Source: Cellulomonas timonensis
GTDB taxonomy: Bacteria; Actinomycetota; Actinomycetes; Actinomycetales; Cellulomonadaceae
Length of the DNA: 64,000 nucleotides
NCBI RefSeq assembly: GCF_900046455.1
Contig: NZ_FCOT01000012.1
Span: 916,017-980,016, forward strand
Direction: 5' to 3'
A model generated the notes under the pieces. It did not search any database and was not told the origin of the DNA. It saw only the letters and a list, made by a program, of their open reading frames with translations. Position numbers and translations under genes: made by a program. This document shows positions 17,929-29,446 of the stretch, piece after piece (the first letter of the stretch is position 1; the number at the start of each line of letters is the position of its first letter).

Positions 17929-17970
17929 GGCACTCCTCCAACAGCTGTGGGGGGAGCAATCGAGCCAGCC

Positions 17971-18083
17971 CCCGCGCTTGCCGTGCGCGGACGTGCGCAC
18001 GACCTGGTCGTCACCCGGGGCACCCCACCGCGGAGGAGGGTTGCCGGCCAGCAAGCCGGGGCTGTGCGCTGGCACTCATGACC
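17971..18083 (-). promoter_or_regulatory. SAM-IV riboswitch
   Basis: On the minus strand, RNA from 18083 to 17971 matches the SAM-IV class closely. The conserved GGUCAUGAGUGCC opening is followed by a CCCCGGCUUGCUGGCCGG stem, GGCAACCCUCC, the GGGGUGCCCCGGGUGACGACC closing strand (ending at 18006), a GUGCGC/GCGCAC hairpin, and GGCAAGCGCGGG. The SufS-like gene starts 42 nt downstream. A TTATCT sequence (18094-18099, read on minus) could be the -10 element. SAM binding is expected to lower expression. I recognised this from the published SAM-IV consensus without a covariance search. Confidence 0.9.
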
Positions 18084-18205
18084 TTGAGTTCAAAGATAAG
18101 CACGGTGGGGCTGACGGCGGCCATCAGGAAGCCGCCACGTCTCGCATGGTGAGCCTGATGTCCGGTGCGTGGAATCTTCCGCCGGTGCGGCGTACTCTCG
18201 CAGGA

Positions 18206-18303
18206 CCATCCAGAGCGGCCGAGAGATCTGGCTCGATGACGCCGCAGCAACCCGCGCGCACCTCCCCGGTGCCGGTCGAGGGTGCTACCGCCAGGACCGA
18301 TGG
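18206..18303 (+). promoter_or_regulatory. SAM-I (S-box) riboswitch upstream of DUF1737-rhodanese-metZ
   Basis: The plus-strand leader has the SAM-I core. P1 is CCATC (18206-18210) paired with GATGG (18299-18303). It contains CAGAGCGGCCGAGAGATCTGG, the kink-turn/P2 segment GAUGACGCCGCAGCAACC, and the P4 segment GGTGCTACCGCCAGG. The SD GGAGG (18302-18306) shares two bases with the 3' strand of P1, and the ATG follows at 18311. Formation of P1 on SAM binding would therefore hide the ribosome binding site. TACTCT at 18193-18198 is a candidate -10. Confidence 0.9.
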
Positions 18304-18310
18304 AGGCGAC

Positions 18311-24369: not shown

Positions 24370-25188
24370 TCAACGGCCGGCGACCCACTTCTCCCCCGCC
24401 TCGACGGCCACCGTCAGGGTGTTCTGCGCAGGCGCCACCGGGCACGTGGCGAACTGTGTGAGCCCGCACGGCAGGTTGGCCGCCCGGTTGAAGTCGAGGG
24501 TCAGCGTGCCGTCCTCGGCGACGGGGCCGAGAGCCAGGGTGCGGGCGCCCGGGTAGGTGGTGACGCCGCTGGTCGCGTCGCGGAACAGGACGCTAGCGCC
24601 GTGGTTGCCGTCGAAGACGATCAGCGACTGGTCGACGCCGCCCAGCGTGAACGTCACAGTGCCGATCGCCGTGTGGTGGTGCTCCAGGCCGTCCACCACG
24701 GCGCCGGTGGTGACGGTCTGGGCCGCGTCGTAGCGGTCGAGTCGGGCCTGGACCGCCCATGCCGGGTCGGGGGCGAACGTGGGGATGCCGGCGAACTCGG
24801 CGAGCTGCGTGGCCTTCGGGTCGTGCACGCGGACGATGTCGTGGCCGGTGCGGCGGGCGACCTCGAGCAGCAGGTCACCGGCCCGGACAGCGAGCCCGGG
24901 GGCGCCCTCGACGGGGGTCAGCTCGGCGGCGCCGTCCACCGTCGACCCGTCGGGCAGCGTGACGCCGTCCGACGCGGCGGCCTCGATGCGGACCGTGCCG
25001 TCGACGCTGGACCAGCGGCCGGGAACACCATCCAGGGTGGCGCTGTCGGAGGTGAGCCAGTGCAGGGCGGTGATGGCGACCCAGCCGTGCGGGGCGCGGA
25101 AGTACTCCTCGCGGGCGGCGTGCCAGGCCTCCCACTCGGCGGCGAAGGCCGCGCGGTCGAGGTCGGTGGAGATGTCGGTGGTGGTCAT
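24370..25188 (-). CDS. DUF1684 protein
   Basis: 272-aa cytosolic protein of the DUF1684 family. Recognisable segments are EWEAWHAAREEYFRAPHGWVAITALHWL at the N-terminus and GARTLALGPVAEDGTLTLDFNRAANLPCGLTQFATCPVAPAQNTL near the end. Function unknown, but family members often sit beside flavin monooxygenases. Here it is the third gene of a SAM-I-controlled unit with two LLM-type monooxygenases (gap 46 nt), which points to use of organosulfur or related compounds as sulfur source. Start ATG 25188. Confidence 0.85.
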   Translation of the reverse strand: MTTTDISTDLDRAAFAAEWEAWHAAREEYFRAPHGWVAITALHWLTSDSATLDGVPGRWSSVDGTVRIEAAASDGVTLPDGSTVDGAAELTPVEGAPGLAVRAGDLLLEVARRTGHDIVRVHDPKATQLAEFAGIPTFAPDPAWAVQARLDRYDAAQTVTTGAVVDGLEHHHTAIGTVTFTLGGVDQSLIVFDGNHGASVLFRDATSGVTTYPGARTLALGPVAEDGTLTLDFNRAANLPCGLTQFATCPVAPAQNTLTVAVEAGEKWVAGR

Positions 25189-25234: not shown

Positions 25235-26626
25235 TCAGGCGGTCAGCGCCTCGTCGGGCGCGTCCACGTCGTCGAGGGTGCTGCCGAAGCGGTCGGCGGC
25301 GGGCAGGCCCAGGTGCTCGCGGAGCGTGGTCCCCGTGTACTCGGTGCGGAATGAGCCGCGCTCTTGCAGCAGCGGCACCACGCGGTCCACGAACTCGTCG
25401 AGGCCGTGCGGCGTCAGGTGCGGGACGAGGATGAAGCCGTCGGACGCGTCGGACTGCACGTACCTGTCGATCTCGTCCGCGACGTGCTGCGGGGTGCCGA
25501 CGAAGGACTGCCGCCCGACGACCTCGATGACCAGCTCGCGGATGCTCAGGCCCTTCTCCTCGGAGAGCGCGCGCCACGTCGCGGCGATGGCCAGGGGGTC
25601 CTTGAAGAAGGACGCCCGACCCTGGGTGATCGACGGCGCCTCGACGAGCGGGTCAATCTCCGGCAGCGGGCCGTCGACGTCGTACTCGGACAGGTCGCGG
25701 TTCCACAGCTGCTCGACGAACGCGCGGGCCACCGCCGGGCGCACCTGCTGGTGCTGGATCTCCCGGAGCCGCTCCTCGGCCTCGGCGGGGGTGTCGCCGA
25801 GCACGAACGAGGCGCCGGGCAGGATCTTGAGGTCCTCCGGGCTGCGGCCGTAACGCGCCAGGCGGCCCTTCACGTCGGCGTAGAACGCCTGGCCGTCCTC
25901 AAGGCTGCCGTGGCGGGAGAACACCGCGTCCGCGACCTGGGCGGCGAGCTCGCGGCCCGCGTCGGAGTCCCCGGCCTGGAGGATCACCGGGTGGCCCTGC
26001 GGGCTGCGCGGCAGCGTGGGGCGCGCCTCGATGTCCACGAGGCGGCCGCCGGTCCGGACCAGGCCGATCGACCGGTCACGCGCGTAGACGCCTGCGGCGG
26101 CATCGGCGGCGATCGCGTCGGGCGCCCAGGCGTCCCACAGCGCGCGCGCCGCCTCGACGACCTCGCGCGCCCGCTCGTAGCGGTCGGCGTGGTCGAGGTA
26201 GCCGCCGCGTCGGAAGTTCGCGCCATGGAACGCGTCCGACGACGTCACCACGTTCCACGCCGCACGGCCCGCGGACAGGTGGTCGAGGGTCGCGAACTGG
26301 CGGGCCAGCTCATACGGCTCGTTGAACGTGGCGTTGATGGTCCCCGCGAGGCCCAGGTGCGTGGTGACGCCGGCCAGCGCCGCGAGCACCGTGTACGTGT
26401 CGGGGCGGCCCACCACGTCGTGGTCCACGAGCTGCCCGCGCTGCTCGCGCAGCCGCAGACCCTCGGCGAGGAACAGGAAGTCGAGTTTGCCGCGCTCGGC
26501 CGTCCGGGCCAGGTGCTCGAAGGACGCGAACGCGGTCTGGGTCTCGGGGCGGTGGGACGGGTCCGTCCACACGGTGTGGTGGTTGACGCCGGGGAAGTGC
26601 GCGGCGAGGTGGATCTGCTTGGGCAT
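25235..26626 (-). CDS. NtaA/SnaA/DszA-family FMN-dependent monooxygenase
   Basis: 463-aa luciferase-fold monooxygenase that uses reduced FMN and O2. It has IHLAAHFPGVNHHTVW at the N-terminus, SAGRAAWNVVTSSDAFHGANFRRGGYLDHADRYERA (about 135-170) and GHPVILQAGDSDAGRELAA, all characteristic of the NtaA/SnaA/DszA (SoxA) group, which attacks C-S or C-N bonds in sulfones, sulfonates and amino-carboxylates. Start ATG 26626. Middle gene of the SAM-I-regulated unit. No dedicated flavin reductase is adjacent. The regulation favours an organosulfur substrate. Confidence 0.9.
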   Translation of the reverse strand: MPKQIHLAAHFPGVNHHTVWTDPSHRPETQTAFASFEHLARTAERGKLDFLFLAEGLRLREQRGQLVDHDVVGRPDTYTVLAALAGVTTHLGLAGTINATFNEPYELARQFATLDHLSAGRAAWNVVTSSDAFHGANFRRGGYLDHADRYERAREVVEAARALWDAWAPDAIAADAAAGVYARDRSIGLVRTGGRLVDIEARPTLPRSPQGHPVILQAGDSDAGRELAAQVADAVFSRHGSLEDGQAFYADVKGRLARYGRSPEDLKILPGASFVLGDTPAEAEERLREIQHQQVRPAVARAFVEQLWNRDLSEYDVDGPLPEIDPLVEAPSITQGRASFFKDPLAIAATWRALSEEKGLSIRELVIEVVGRQSFVGTPQHVADEIDRYVQSDASDGFILVPHLTPHGLDEFVDRVVPLLQERGSFRTEYTGTTLREHLGLPAADRFGSTLDDVDAPDEALTA

Positions 26627-26658: not shown

Positions 26659-27840
26659 TCAGCGGGCCAGGGTGTAGCGGCTCAGGGGCCGGTCCAGGCC
26701 GAACGCGTCACGCAACGTGCGCGGCGCCTCCGGGCCGGCCTTCGCGGGCAGGTCGGCGAGCCGGCCCTGCTCGCGCAGCCGGGGCGACACCTCCTCCGCG
26801 AGCACCGCGAGGTCGCCCGCGTGGGCGAGCGGCTGCAGCACGAGCCCGTCGACGCCGGTGAGGTCCACGACATCCGCGAGCGCGTCAGCGGCCCGCTCCG
26901 CCCCCGCGACCACGTGCACGCCACTGGGCTCATACGGCCGCCCGGCCAGGCGGTCGAGCTCGGCGAGCCGCTCGCGCGCGGCGGCCTCGTCACGTCCGAG
27001 CAGCGTCTCGACGTCGAGCAGCACCTTGACCGAGCGGGCGGGCCGGCCCGAGCCCGCGACGGCCGCGCGCACCCTCGCGGCCAGGGCGCTGGCCTCCTTG
27101 ACGTCCCGGGCCGCGATGCGGATCACGTCGGCGCCGGCCACGGCGACGCCCAGCGCGTAGGGCACGTCACCGCGCACCACGACGAGCGGCTGCCCCTGCG
27201 GCGAGCGCGGCGTGATCGAGGCGCCGGCCACCGAGAAGGTCGTGCCGGTGAACGCCACGTCGTGGACGCGGTCACGGTCGATGTACCTGTCCGTCGCCGC
27301 GTCGAGCACGATCGCGTCGTCCTCCCACGAATCCCACAACCGGCGGACCACCTCGATGACGTCGGCCGCCTCGCGCCACTGGGCCGCGGAGCCGACAGCC
27401 GACCGGCCGTGGAACTGCGCAGCCTGCACGTCCCCGGCGCCCGTGCCCGCAGGCGCCGCGACGTCCACCTGCCACCCCGCGCGGCCCTGGCTCACCAGGT
27501 CGACGGTGGCCACCGCCTTGGCCACGTGGAACGGCTCCGCATAGGTCACCGGCACCACGGGCACGATGCCGATGCGCGAGGTCAGCGGGCCGAGCAGCGC
27601 CGCGACACCCGTCGCGTCCAGCCGGGCCTGCACGGTGTCCGCAGCCGCGCTAGGCGGCGCCACCGAGTCCGCGAGGACCACGAACGCGGCGCCGGCGCGC
27701 TCCGACCTGCGGACCAGCTCAGCCCAGTGGGCCGCGGTCAGGAGGCCCGCGGCGTCGGCGTCGGGCAGCCGCCAGGCGGCGGGATGGCGGCCGGCGCCGC
27801 CGAGCTCGACGGCGAGGTGGAACGGACGTGACTCGGACAT
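26659..27840 (-). CDS. LLM-class flavin-dependent monooxygenase
   Basis: 393-aa luciferase-like protein. FHLAVELGGAGRHPAAWRL, IGIVPVVPVTYAEPFHVAKAVATVDLVSQGRAGWQVDV, and PRSPQGQPLVVVRGD give the TIM-barrel landmarks, and the later VKVLLDVETLLGRDEAAARERL is shared with the half-size paralogue at 20215-20805. Start ATG 27840, with AAGGGGTA upstream. First structural gene of a unit with the NtaA-type monooxygenase and DUF1684, controlled by a SAM-I riboswitch and a Cys-rich leader peptide about 250-400 nt upstream. Probably part of organosulfur utilisation. Confidence 0.87.
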   Translation of the reverse strand: MSESRPFHLAVELGGAGRHPAAWRLPDADAAGLLTAAHWAELVRRSERAGAAFVVLADSVAPPSAAADTVQARLDATGVAALLGPLTSRIGIVPVVPVTYAEPFHVAKAVATVDLVSQGRAGWQVDVAAPAGTGAGDVQAAQFHGRSAVGSAAQWREAADVIEVVRRLWDSWEDDAIVLDAATDRYIDRDRVHDVAFTGTTFSVAGASITPRSPQGQPLVVVRGDVPYALGVAVAGADVIRIAARDVKEASALAARVRAAVAGSGRPARSVKVLLDVETLLGRDEAAARERLAELDRLAGRPYEPSGVHVVAGAERAADALADVVDLTGVDGLVLQPLAHAGDLAVLAEEVSPRLREQGRLADLPAKAGPEAPRTLRDAFGLDRPLSRYTLAR

Positions 27841-28092
27841 GGGTACCCCTTGCTGACGGGTGCGCCGACGGAGCAGGCGCGGATGGAGGGTGCGGGATCG
27901 TGCATCGGGCGACGCCCTGGACACGGGCCCCGCCAAGCCGGTCGACGCGGTCCGAACGGGCCACGGCGGACGGAGGGCTGTGGGCGACGTGCCCCCGGAA
28001 CGGGCCGGTCGCAGGTGCGCGCGTGACGCGCGGTGGGCTGACGGCGGGGTCAGCGGAGAGTCATGTGCCCGCGCGCGGCGGACGGCCTGGCG

Positions 28093-28140
28093 TCAGGCTG
28101 GACAACAACGACAGCGGTGAACGCTGCTCGGGTTGCGCAC
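28093..28140 (-). CDS. Cys-rich leader peptide MRNPSSVHRCRCCPA
   Basis: 15-codon ORF starting at GTG 28140 with SD GGAGG (bases 28151-28147 on minus) at ideal 6-nt spacing and ending at TGA 28093-28095. Three of its last six codons are TGT (Cys). The SD overlaps by two bases the closing P1 strand of the SAM-I riboswitch just upstream, so SAM would control its translation. Cys-rich short ORFs upstream of sulfur genes act as cysteine-responsive attenuators in mycobacteria, so the same role is inferred here. The 252 nt between it and the monooxygenase gene hold GC hairpins but no single clear terminator. Confidence 0.65.
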   Translation of the reverse strand: MRNPSSVHRCRCCPA

Positions 28141-28149
28141 GGTGGACCT

Positions 28150-28245
28150 CCATCGGTCCTGGCGGGAGCACCCTCGCCTACCGCGGGATGCGGACGGGGG
28201 TTGCTGCGACGTCGGCGAGCCAGGTCTCTCAGTCGCTCTGGATGG
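28150..28245 (-). promoter_or_regulatory. SAM-I (S-box) riboswitch upstream of the monooxygenase operon
   Basis: Read on minus from 28245 to 28150: P1 CCATC paired with GATGG, CAGAGCGACTGAGAGACCTGG, GACGUCGCAGCAACC, and the P4 segment GGTGCTCCCGCCAGG. It is nearly collinear with the SAM-I element at 18206-18303. TACCGT (28254-28259 on minus) is a candidate -10. The first ORF downstream is a Cys-rich leader peptide, not the enzyme gene. The riboswitch and leader fill most of the 526-nt gap between the divergent oxidoreductase genes (27841-28366). Confidence 0.88.
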
Positions 28246-28366
28246 GCACGCACACGGTACGGACGGGACATACCTCCAGGGAAGGGCGCATCCGGGATAC
28301 GAGACACCCGCAGGAACAGGCGGCGGTCCCGGGCCGTTCCCCCTGCACAACCACCAGGAGGCGGCA

Positions 28367-29446
28367 ATGGCCATCGAGCTCGGCATCGACACGTTCGGGG
28401 ACGTCACGCAGGGGCCCGACGGCACACTGCTCAGCCAGGCGCAGGTGCTGCGCAACGTCGTGGAGCAGGGCGTGCTCGCGGAGCAGTCCGGGCTGGACGC
28501 CATCGGCGTGGGCGAGCACCACCGCGACGACTTCGCGATCTCCGCGCCCGAGGTGGTGCTCGCCGCCATCGCCGGGCGCACCGAGCGCATCCTGCTCGGC
28601 TCGGCGGTCACCGTGCTGTCCTCCGACGACCCGGTGCGGGTCTTCGAGCGCTTCTCCACCCTCGACGCGGTGTCCCGCGGACGCGCCGAGGTGACGGTGG
28701 GCCGAGGCTCCTTCACGGAGTCGTTCCCCCTGTTCGGGCTGGACCTGTCGCAGTACGAGGAGCTGTTCGAGGAGAAGCTCGACCTGTTCACGCGCCTGCT
28801 GGACGGCGGCCCCGTCACCTGGTCCGGGAACACCCGCTCGGCGCTCACCGACCAGCACGTCTACCCGCCCATCGAGCACGGGCGGCGGCTGCGCACCTGG
28901 GTGGGCGTGGGCGGCAGCCCCGAGTCCGTGATCCGCGCGGCCCGCCACGGGCTGCCGCTCATGCTGGCGATCATCGGCGGCGAGCCCGTCCGGTTCCGGC
29001 CCTTCGTGGAGCTGTACCACCGGGCCCTCGCGCAGCTCGGCACCGGGCCCGGCCTGATGGGCCAGCACTCGCCGGGGCACATCGCCGACACCGACGACGA
29101 GGCCCTCGAGCAGCTCTGGCCGCACTACCGCGTCTACGTGGGCCGCATCGGACGCGAGCGCGGCTGGCCGCCGCCCACCCGAGAGGCGTTCGAGGCCGCC
29201 GCCGGCCCCGACGGCGCCCTCTACGCCGGCTCCCCCACCACCGTCGCCGCGAAGATCGTCCGCTCAGCGCAGACCCTCGGGCTCGACCGGTTCGACCTCA
29301 AGGTCTCCCAGGGCGCCCTGCCGCATGAGCACACGATGCGCGCGATCGAGTTGTACGGCACCGTCGTCGCGCCGCTGGTCCGCGGGGCCCTCGCCGCCGA
29401 TTCCACCGCCCCCACGCCAGAGCGATCGGACGAGGCTCGGGGGTGA
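28367..29446 (+). CDS. LLM-class flavin-dependent oxidoreductase
   Basis: 359-aa luciferase-like protein of the group with LGIDTFGDVTQGPDG at the start and GLDAIGVGEHHRDDFAISAPEVVLAAIAGRTERILLGSAVTVLSSDDPVRVFERFSTLDAVSRGRAEVTVGRG in the barrel. Such proteins use FMN or F420; this subgroup is often annotated as an alkanal monooxygenase-like or N5,N10-methylene-H4MPT-like oxidoreductase. Start ATG 28367 with AGGAGG. Divergent from the SAM-I-controlled operon, so it is outside that riboswitch's reach. Substrate unknown. Confidence 0.85.
   Translation: MAIELGIDTFGDVTQGPDGTLLSQAQVLRNVVEQGVLAEQSGLDAIGVGEHHRDDFAISAPEVVLAAIAGRTERILLGSAVTVLSSDDPVRVFERFSTLDAVSRGRAEVTVGRGSFTESFPLFGLDLSQYEELFEEKLDLFTRLLDGGPVTWSGNTRSALTDQHVYPPIEHGRRLRTWVGVGGSPESVIRAARHGLPLMLAIIGGEPVRFRPFVELYHRALAQLGTGPGLMGQHSPGHIADTDDEALEQLWPHYRVYVGRIGRERGWPPPTREAFEAAAGPDGALYAGSPTTVAAKIVRSAQTLGLDRFDLKVSQGALPHEHTMRAIELYGTVVAPLVRGALAADSTAPTPERSDEARG

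Follow-up and report, generated by a model that had tools for sequence, protein, structure and literature searches.

In the window, the whole 64,000-nucleotide stretch of Cellulomonas timonensis DNA analysed here, an operon on the minus strand encodes two flavin monooxygenases related to NtaA/DmoA and perhaps a DUF1684 protein (Table 1). Upstream of these genes, the earlier note had placed a SAM-I riboswitch followed by a Cys-rich 15-codon ORF with a GTG start at 28093..28245, and both the coordinates and the sequence are confirmed. The aptamer (28248-28147) scores 45.7 bits against the RF00162 covariance model, above the gathering threshold of 44.4 (E 3.1e-7), and is a predicted SAM-I riboswitch. 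Its 3' end is GATGGAGG, the final bases of which form the Shine-Dalgarno (SD) sequence of the ORF, 6 nt upstream of the start codon. The claimed overlap of this SD with the closing strand of P1 holds as well; it comprises 2 nt, both G (28151 and 28150). A P1 3' strand overlapping the SD of the first ORF is the anatomy of a translational OFF riboswitch. GATGGAG, in which P1 is fused to the SD, forms the 3' end of 44 of the 46 SAM-I aptamers read in the family and of none of the 30 top-scoring SAM-I loci in the class sample. The mutual exclusion of P1 and SD, also proposed in the earlier note, is borne out at the level of anatomy.

Table 1. Features of the riboswitch, leader and monooxygenase locus in the window.
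Feature	Position	Strand	Remark
Probable promoter, -10-like box TACCGT	28254..28259	-	8 nt before P1; from sequence, invariant in three genomes
SAM-I riboswitch aptamer (predicted)	28147..28248	-	RF00162, full length 1-108
P1 5' strand CCATC	28241..28245	-	from sequence
P1 3' strand GATGG	28150..28154	-	two G common to SD
Leader SD GGAGG	28147..28151	-	from sequence
Candidate Cys leader ORF VRNPSSVHRCRCCPA, GTG start, 15 codons, TGA stop	28093..28140	-	kept at loci L126 and L127
Proposed sensor codons TGT CGT TGT TGT (C-R-C-C)	28102..28113	-	from sequence
Hairpin 1, after leader stop	28067..28083	-	6 bp, loop 5; paired in 3/3 sequences, one C-G to U-G change
Hairpin 2, GCTGAC/GTCAGC	28037..28054	-	end of conserved block; paired in 3/3, invariant
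C-rich spacer, possible Rho-binding stretch	27855..28036	-	poorly conserved in G038
Monooxygenase SD AAGGGG	27846..27851	-	from sequence
NtaA/DmoA-like flavin monooxygenase, ATG at 27840	26659..27840	-	PF00296 (luciferase-like); TIGR03860 below cut-off
NtaA/DmoA family FMN-dependent monooxygenase	25235..26626	-	TIGR03860, 428 bits (cut-off 279.7)
DUF1684 protein, perhaps last operon gene	24370..25188	-	profile match

The placement of the TACCGT box suggests that the transcript would begin at the aptamer, which makes it a probable promoter. A -10 motif TAnnnT is described for Streptomyces lividans in excerpts of PMC8079986; a sigma-70 consensus scan at the locus gave no match. The window ORF has an SD and sits behind a 102-nt aptamer, which, with the transcription start predicted from the sequence, would make a leaderless start of the Canestrari type less likely. 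Its Cys residues are residues 10, 12 and 13, all encoded by TGT, and make up three of the last six. Clustered Cys codons near the stop, together with the SD GGAGG, are the anatomy of a Cys leader or attenuator. In a profile search (20 residues given, short for an HMM), the leader matched none of the families, the NCBIfam leader models NF042934 and NF042936 included.

The leader stop and the monooxygenase ATG are 252 nt apart, with no overlapping stop and start codons. No intrinsic terminator of a classical attenuator was found between 28092 and 27841 by consensus scan. The earlier note had suggested a look for a hairpin or a Rho site in 27841-28092; the stretch has two hairpins, a C-rich part that hints at Rho, and no terminator-like site. 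Across the whole 28092-27855 stretch, the raw content of C is 0.47 and that of G is 0.31.

Elsewhere in the window, a SAM-IV riboswitch (17969-18083, minus strand) and a SAM-I riboswitch (18203-18306, plus strand) lie back to back, 119 nt apart, between divergent genes. The minus-strand gene behind the SAM-IV resembles the commonest SAM-IV targets. On the plus side, the SAM-I is followed by a small ORF and then, as judged by eye, by rhodanese and sulfhydrylase genes.

SAM-I riboswitches are present in all seven genus genomes covered, and the one described here, a third SAM-I, in three of them (the window genome, G055 and G038). The complete element, composed of SAM-I, leader and a C-R-C-C tract encoded entirely with TGT, is likewise present in three of seven, and these are exactly the genomes with a close monooxygenase (83-94% identity). 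The riboswitch copies in G055 and G038 score 43.8 and 43.1 bits, slightly below the cut-off of 44.4, and are unlisted at gathering. Their leaders are MRNPSSVHSCRCCPA and MRHPSSSHRCRCCRG, and their downstream monooxygenases are 94% and 83% identical to that of the window, respectively. At the loci in these two genomes (L126 and L127), SD, GTG start and TGTCGTTGTTGT match the window exactly, riboswitch identity is 95 and 98%, and the downstream gene is the same monooxygenase. Across the three genomes, the Cys block TGTCGTTGTTGT does not vary. Lack of conservation of the Cys codons in relatives would, according to the earlier note, have refuted the idea; they are conserved in three of the three genus genomes with the element.

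Identity between the window and G038 is highest in the riboswitch (0.98); the leader reaches 0.85, the segment from the leader stop to the end of hairpin 2 and the 5' end of the gene 0.88 each, and the spacer 0.49. Between the window and G055, every segment is at least 0.91 identical, and the step past hairpin 2 is small (0.93 to 0.91). Promoter, aptamer, leader and two hairpins together look like the conserved unit, a contrast that rests on G038; the spacer loses identity in the G038 comparison alone, and there the leader (0.85) is not conserved above the gene 5' end (0.88). P1 and the two hairpins comprise 17 pairs, all of which can form in each of the three sequences. Covariation was not seen for the two hairpins among these three close sequences, which show a single one-sided change. 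A codon-pattern search for a C-terminal HRCRCC in 221 family genomes gave 54 matches in 48 genomes. Of the 30 inspected, two, one from G038 and one from the window genome, belong to a short leader with an SD; the others look like chance, and such matches were rejected as a guide to leaders.

The metF-type SAM-I is followed by a uORF of 16-21 codons in seven genomes of the genus (L001, L116, L117, L120, L121, L124 and L125). Each peptide (MTCMDRCRP..., MTCTSPCPRP..., MICSAPCPW...) has Cys at position 3, at position 7 or at both. The uORF ends in an ATGA or GTGA overlap (from sequence) with the start of the next gene, named metF by eye. The metF locus is a second predicted relay from SAM-I to a uORF in the genus, with translational coupling.

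The monooxygenase search of the 221 family genomes gave a match at E 1e-40 in 74, and the best 30 loci, window included, were read. The earlier note had called for a search for the same pairing upstream of homologous monooxygenase operons, and a SAM riboswitch with a Cys-rich leader behind it is found at 20 of these 30 best-matching loci (window included), which as loci of one family are non-independent. The riboswitch is SAM-I in three (two just under the cut-off) and SAM-IV in 17. The SAM-IV (RF00634, 77 to 97 bits) lies upstream on the same strand in 17 of the 30, and each of these 17 has an SD-led Cys leader beginning 30 to 62 nt past it. An SD-led Cys-rich short ORF is present within 700 nt upstream in 24 of the 30. 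Four loci (L166, L167, L168 and L182) have the leader with no over-cut-off riboswitch upstream; L166 has a SAM-IV on the opposite strand, which was excluded from the count. Another four (L163, L164, L165 and L185) have neither. Outside the genus, the closest homologues are L161 and L162 (55-56%); there, a SAM-I with GATGGAGG is placed directly on the monooxygenase SD with no leader, which would fit addition of the leader to a SAM switch already in place. The SAM-I of L162 passes Rfam and that of L161 was identified by eye.

Of 80 named monooxygenase homologues (best 47% identity), none has both a SAM motif and a leader under a strict rule. Under a relaxed rule, one of the 80, from Cellulosimicrobium funkei (L074), has both, and its SAM-IV was confirmed; the Rfam scan covered 10 of the 80. 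In Streptomyces sp. NBC_00620 (L098), SAM-IV is followed by a HIDLQRVAGALC-type leader with one Cys, which falls below the rule. The leaders of L357 and L098 are of the HIDL type and follow SAM-IV with the motif kept and Cys absent (SSAY) or single (GALCRP); they are perhaps decaying or reading another signal. Behind SAM-I, the leader rule selects four of the 46 aptamers read in the family, of which three are the element described here and one is the metF uORF. Outside the family, no Cys leader was found behind SAM-I at the 30 top-scoring SAM-I loci of the class sample.

A census of SAM-IV was made in 35 genomes picked for carrying several SAM-IV, so that its proportions are no class-wide rate. 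All 146 matches were read and 145 were long enough for the test (L380 was too short). The GCAACC core is missing from six of the 146, whose status as riboswitches is doubtful; none of these six is among the positives. The final rule accepted SD-led ORFs of 8-50 codons that start at -8 to +110 nt and have at least two Cys in the last 12 residues. It was set after a first pass (18/146 with at least three Cys anywhere), and the shuffles and the antisense strand were scored under the same final rule. An SD-led Cys-rich short ORF is present behind 22 of the 145 SAM-IV, compared with 0.9 in dinucleotide shuffles and none on the antisense strand. The shuffle rate is about 0.6% per region for the 145 regions behind SAM-IV, a set that does not include the window region. 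The 22 include doubtful cases (L363, with a TTG start, and L332) and near-identical pairs (L358/L361). For other residues, the observed and shuffled counts are 27 and 10.9 for Arg, 12 and 3.7 for Thr, 9 and 3.4 for Leu, and 2 and 0.4 for Ile; the Cys ratio is unmatched by any of them on more than a handful of cases.

The leaders are highly diverse between loci, for example MCCCRSQFAFR, MRASLHPLTRCCCR and MSMRSTDGDTRATRLDMCCRSMCTDESCR, and their lengths range from 11 to 43 residues. The window genome contains a second such case (L358, G000:C13:159933-160042), in which SAM-IV is followed by a leader with four TGT, VAHWQCPDAPCVGCRRMLLVPRACR, and then by a gene for a family-5 solute-binding protein; L361 in G055 is nearly identical to it. 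The HVDL/HIDL-type leader L337, from the 9.9-Mb genome G321, is among the 22 and lies below the NF042934 cut-off. L308 (also G321) and L273, of the same type, reach this 27-bit cut-off, as two of ten leaders from other loci; with one Cys in the last 12 residues, they are not among the 22. At L297 and L309, SAM-IV is followed at most 15 nt later by MCCCRSQFAFR or MCCCCLSLAHR, with poly-Cys from codon 2, and the gene after L297 encodes a Cys/Met-metabolism PLP enzyme. At L278 and L279, in another genus of the family, SAM-IV is followed by leaders with an RCRC core like that of the window, VRPAGTHRSNRCRCTTA and MRREGEHRRCRCRL...

Cys codons are read by an anticodon starting with G, through wobble. 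In the 22 leaders, Cys is encoded by TGT 54 times and by TGC 17 times, while the downstream genes of the same riboswitch set show 48 and 234 (Fisher 7.6e-21; 3.7e-19 without a duplicate). ORFs from the shuffled sequences show 103 and 224. In non-Cys codons, the ratio of T to C at the third position is 29:254 in leaders and 2431:22950 in genes (p 0.68), which indicates that the TGT bias does not come from a need for U in the RNA and is specific to Cys codons. The window leader follows the same tendency, with three TGT of three against 1 TGT and 11 TGC in eight window genes (p 0.009). The Cys codons of the leaders look selected as codons, and such selection fits a sensor.

The genes behind leader-positive and leader-negative SAM-IV differ. 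A gene was called in 16 of the 22 leader-positive cases, of which 15 were scanned (L363 was dropped), and in 119 of the 123 leader-negative cases, of which 93 were scanned (26 uncertain calls were dropped). The 15 comprise Bac_luciferase (7), SBP_bac_5 (4), Cys_Met_Meta_PP (2), SDF (1) and one with no Pfam family; the 93 include Aminotran_5 (31), Cys_Met_Meta_PP (8), Bac_luciferase (7) and SBP_bac_5 (6). Bac_luciferase is enriched behind leaders (7/15 and 7/93, Fisher p 0.0005), while Aminotran_5 is found only without them (0/15 and 31/93, p 0.005). Three of the six leader-positive cases with no call (L303, L313 and L318) precede monooxygenases from the family search. These counts indicate that Cys leaders go mostly with monooxygenases and solute-binding proteins, and not with Aminotran_5, the commonest direct SAM-IV target.

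The earlier two-signal interpretation is supported by these comparisons, which extend it in two ways: the pairing is found again with SAM-IV in addition to SAM-I, and the Cys codons are biased to TGT. We consider it probable, at roughly 70%, that two inputs are read in series by a switch in the 5' leader of this sulfur-scavenging monooxygenase operon. Binding of SAM would close P1 and occupy part of the leader SD, so that ribosomes could not start on the leader; the anatomy of this step is observed, and its function is attributed from the family of such switches. At low SAM, the 15-codon leader would be translated up to TGT-CGT-TGT-TGT beside the stop, where a shortage of Cys-tRNA would stall the ribosome. 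The leader would in this way report the charging of tRNA-Cys. The stalled ribosome may then keep the operon open, either because it protects the RNA against Rho or because it obstructs the hairpins after the leader, while a finished or absent ribosome would let a default OFF state form. The net logic would be ON only when SAM and cysteine are both low; it would invert if a silent leader left the operon ON. For mycobacterial cys operons, Rho has been proposed in excerpts of PMC1262725, and the C-rich stretch with no terminator-like site after the leader fits this proposal as a hint. The same design, with SAM-IV for SAM-I, precedes related operons in other genera. These cases probably form a recurrent actinobacterial class, in which a SAM-I or SAM-IV aptamer gates a TGT-biased, cysteine-sensing leader for a joint SAM and cysteine function on one mRNA. 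The class would have arisen more than once, by addition of a leader to a SAM switch or of a SAM switch to a leader.

Alternatively, SAM could act on the leader and translation per se, not the Cys codons, on the operon. Such relays have precedents in B12-ppe2 and perhaps Mbox-pe20 of Mycobacterium tuberculosis, whose riboswitches both mask the SD of a uORF (excerpts of PMC11260477 and PMC12810186), and the metF SAM-I of the genus likewise leads into a uORF with a stop codon that overlaps the metF start. However, a pure relay would explain neither the enrichment of Cys (22 against 0.9) nor the TGT bias specific to it, and the 252 nt to the gene start exclude stop-start coupling here, which leaves a relay insensitive to cysteine unlikely.

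Control could also pass through the SD of the monooxygenase gene. Attenuation by mycobacterial polycysteine uORFs, as ascribed to Canestrari in 2020, reportedly acts through pairing of the SD of the downstream gene, and the leader region would do the same here. Excerpts of PMC9031893 state that the leaderless contiguous-Cys uORFs of M. smegmatis regulate downstream translation by attenuation. In simulations of ribosome stalls, however, the accessibility of the monooxygenase SD is unchanged in all three species (0.41 throughout in the window, 0.41 to 0.42 in G055 and 0.24 to 0.26 in G038), and simple sequestration of this SD by the leader region was rejected. The start codon shows no common trend (0.24 to 0.67 in G055), and the spacer is not conserved in G038. 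Translational attenuation of this type is considered improbable.

It is very unlikely that the ORF is incidental to a conserved RNA element, such as a terminator-like hairpin at 28127-28111 with the T-rich TGT/CGT codons as its tail, and that transcription is controlled through it by SAM or not at all. A single terminator-like site, this hairpin inside the leader, came out of the consensus scan of 27800-28400 (0.1 expected), and the fold is shared by the window and G055 (z -2.35 and -1.93). The fold differs in G038 (z +0.56), however, and the T-rich tail is broken by G. In the 22 SAM-IV leaders, six stems end at a Cys codon compared with 11.1 at random positions, and the third-position T is raised at Cys codons only. 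A terminator made from the codons of the leader was rejected on the missing fold in G038 and this restriction of T to Cys codons. That the leader is a functional small protein binding metal or redox partners is hardly credible, since, although it is Cys-rich and kept in three genomes, sequences differ greatly between genera (11 to 43 residues) while Cys and the choice of TGT persist.

The two-input switch can be compared with known systems. The enteric mgtA leader with mgtL combines a ligand-sensing RNA with an amino-acid-sensitive short ORF; its ligands and anatomy differ from those of the window. Cys leader peptides before actinobacterial sulfur operons are already known from excerpts of PMC1262725 and PMC4633059. 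The leaders of Mycobacterium cys operons (Seliverstov 2005, PMC1262725) are, as excerpted, similar in their Cys codons near the stop, their sulfur operon and the lack of a conserved terminator after them. The polycysteine uORFs of M. smegmatis are leaderless according to excerpts of PMC9031893, whereas the window leader has an SD overlapping P1 of the SAM aptamer. In the accessible passages of PMC1262725, PMC9031893 and PMC4633059, no riboswitch is mentioned before the Cys leaders, while the window leader has one. Translational SAM-I riboswitches of actinobacteria also have a base stem that overlaps the translation start and no extra hairpins, the layout given for actinobacterial riboswitches in excerpts of PMC1262725; in the window, however, the first ORF is a Cys leader and not an enzyme.

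Excerpts of PMC11260477 and PMC12810186 show that B12-ppe2 and Mbox-pe20 are similar to the window in that a riboswitch masks the SD of a uORF before an operon, but do not present these uORFs as amino-acid sensors, as is proposed here. For ppe2 they give an AUGA overlap, in contrast to the 252 nt in the window. For the Mbox leader, the authors describe Rho-dependent termination that is perhaps independent of uORF translation (excerpts of PMC12810186). The Xanthomonas SAM-I that binds uncharged initiator tRNA (excerpts of PMC7270179) likewise joins SAM and a tRNA-charging signal on one mRNA, but there the expression platform itself binds the tRNA and both inputs are on the methionine side, while the window ORF would read cysteine. 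Neither the literature matches listed, from a search that lay outside most subscription papers, nor the accessible parts of PMC8632094, PMC8079986, PMC9373788, PMC3890552, PMC8269248 and PMC3774663 describe a SAM riboswitch placed in series with a Cys leader. The parts, which are Cys leaders, riboswitch-controlled uORFs and tRNA-sensing SAM-I, are known, and it is their pairing as a SAM riboswitch and a Cys leader in series that has no match in the literature listed.

An end product is usually taken to be sensed either by a riboswitch or by a leader peptide. If the two-input reading is true, a metabolite aptamer decides whether an amino-acid-sensing ORF is read, which would be a compact logic gate at the point where methionine/SAM and cysteine branch. 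The reading would also give a function to the short Cys ORFs behind part of the SAM-IV riboswitches. The combination of SAM aptamer, SD, short ORF and TGT-rich tail is a searchable signature, and the Cys-specific TGT bias is a clue to the tuning of such sensors. Dual control would be predicted for organosulfur-scavenging operons, and the locus suggests that the genes of the monooxygenase operon read the methionine-side and the cysteine-side sulfur status in series on one mRNA.
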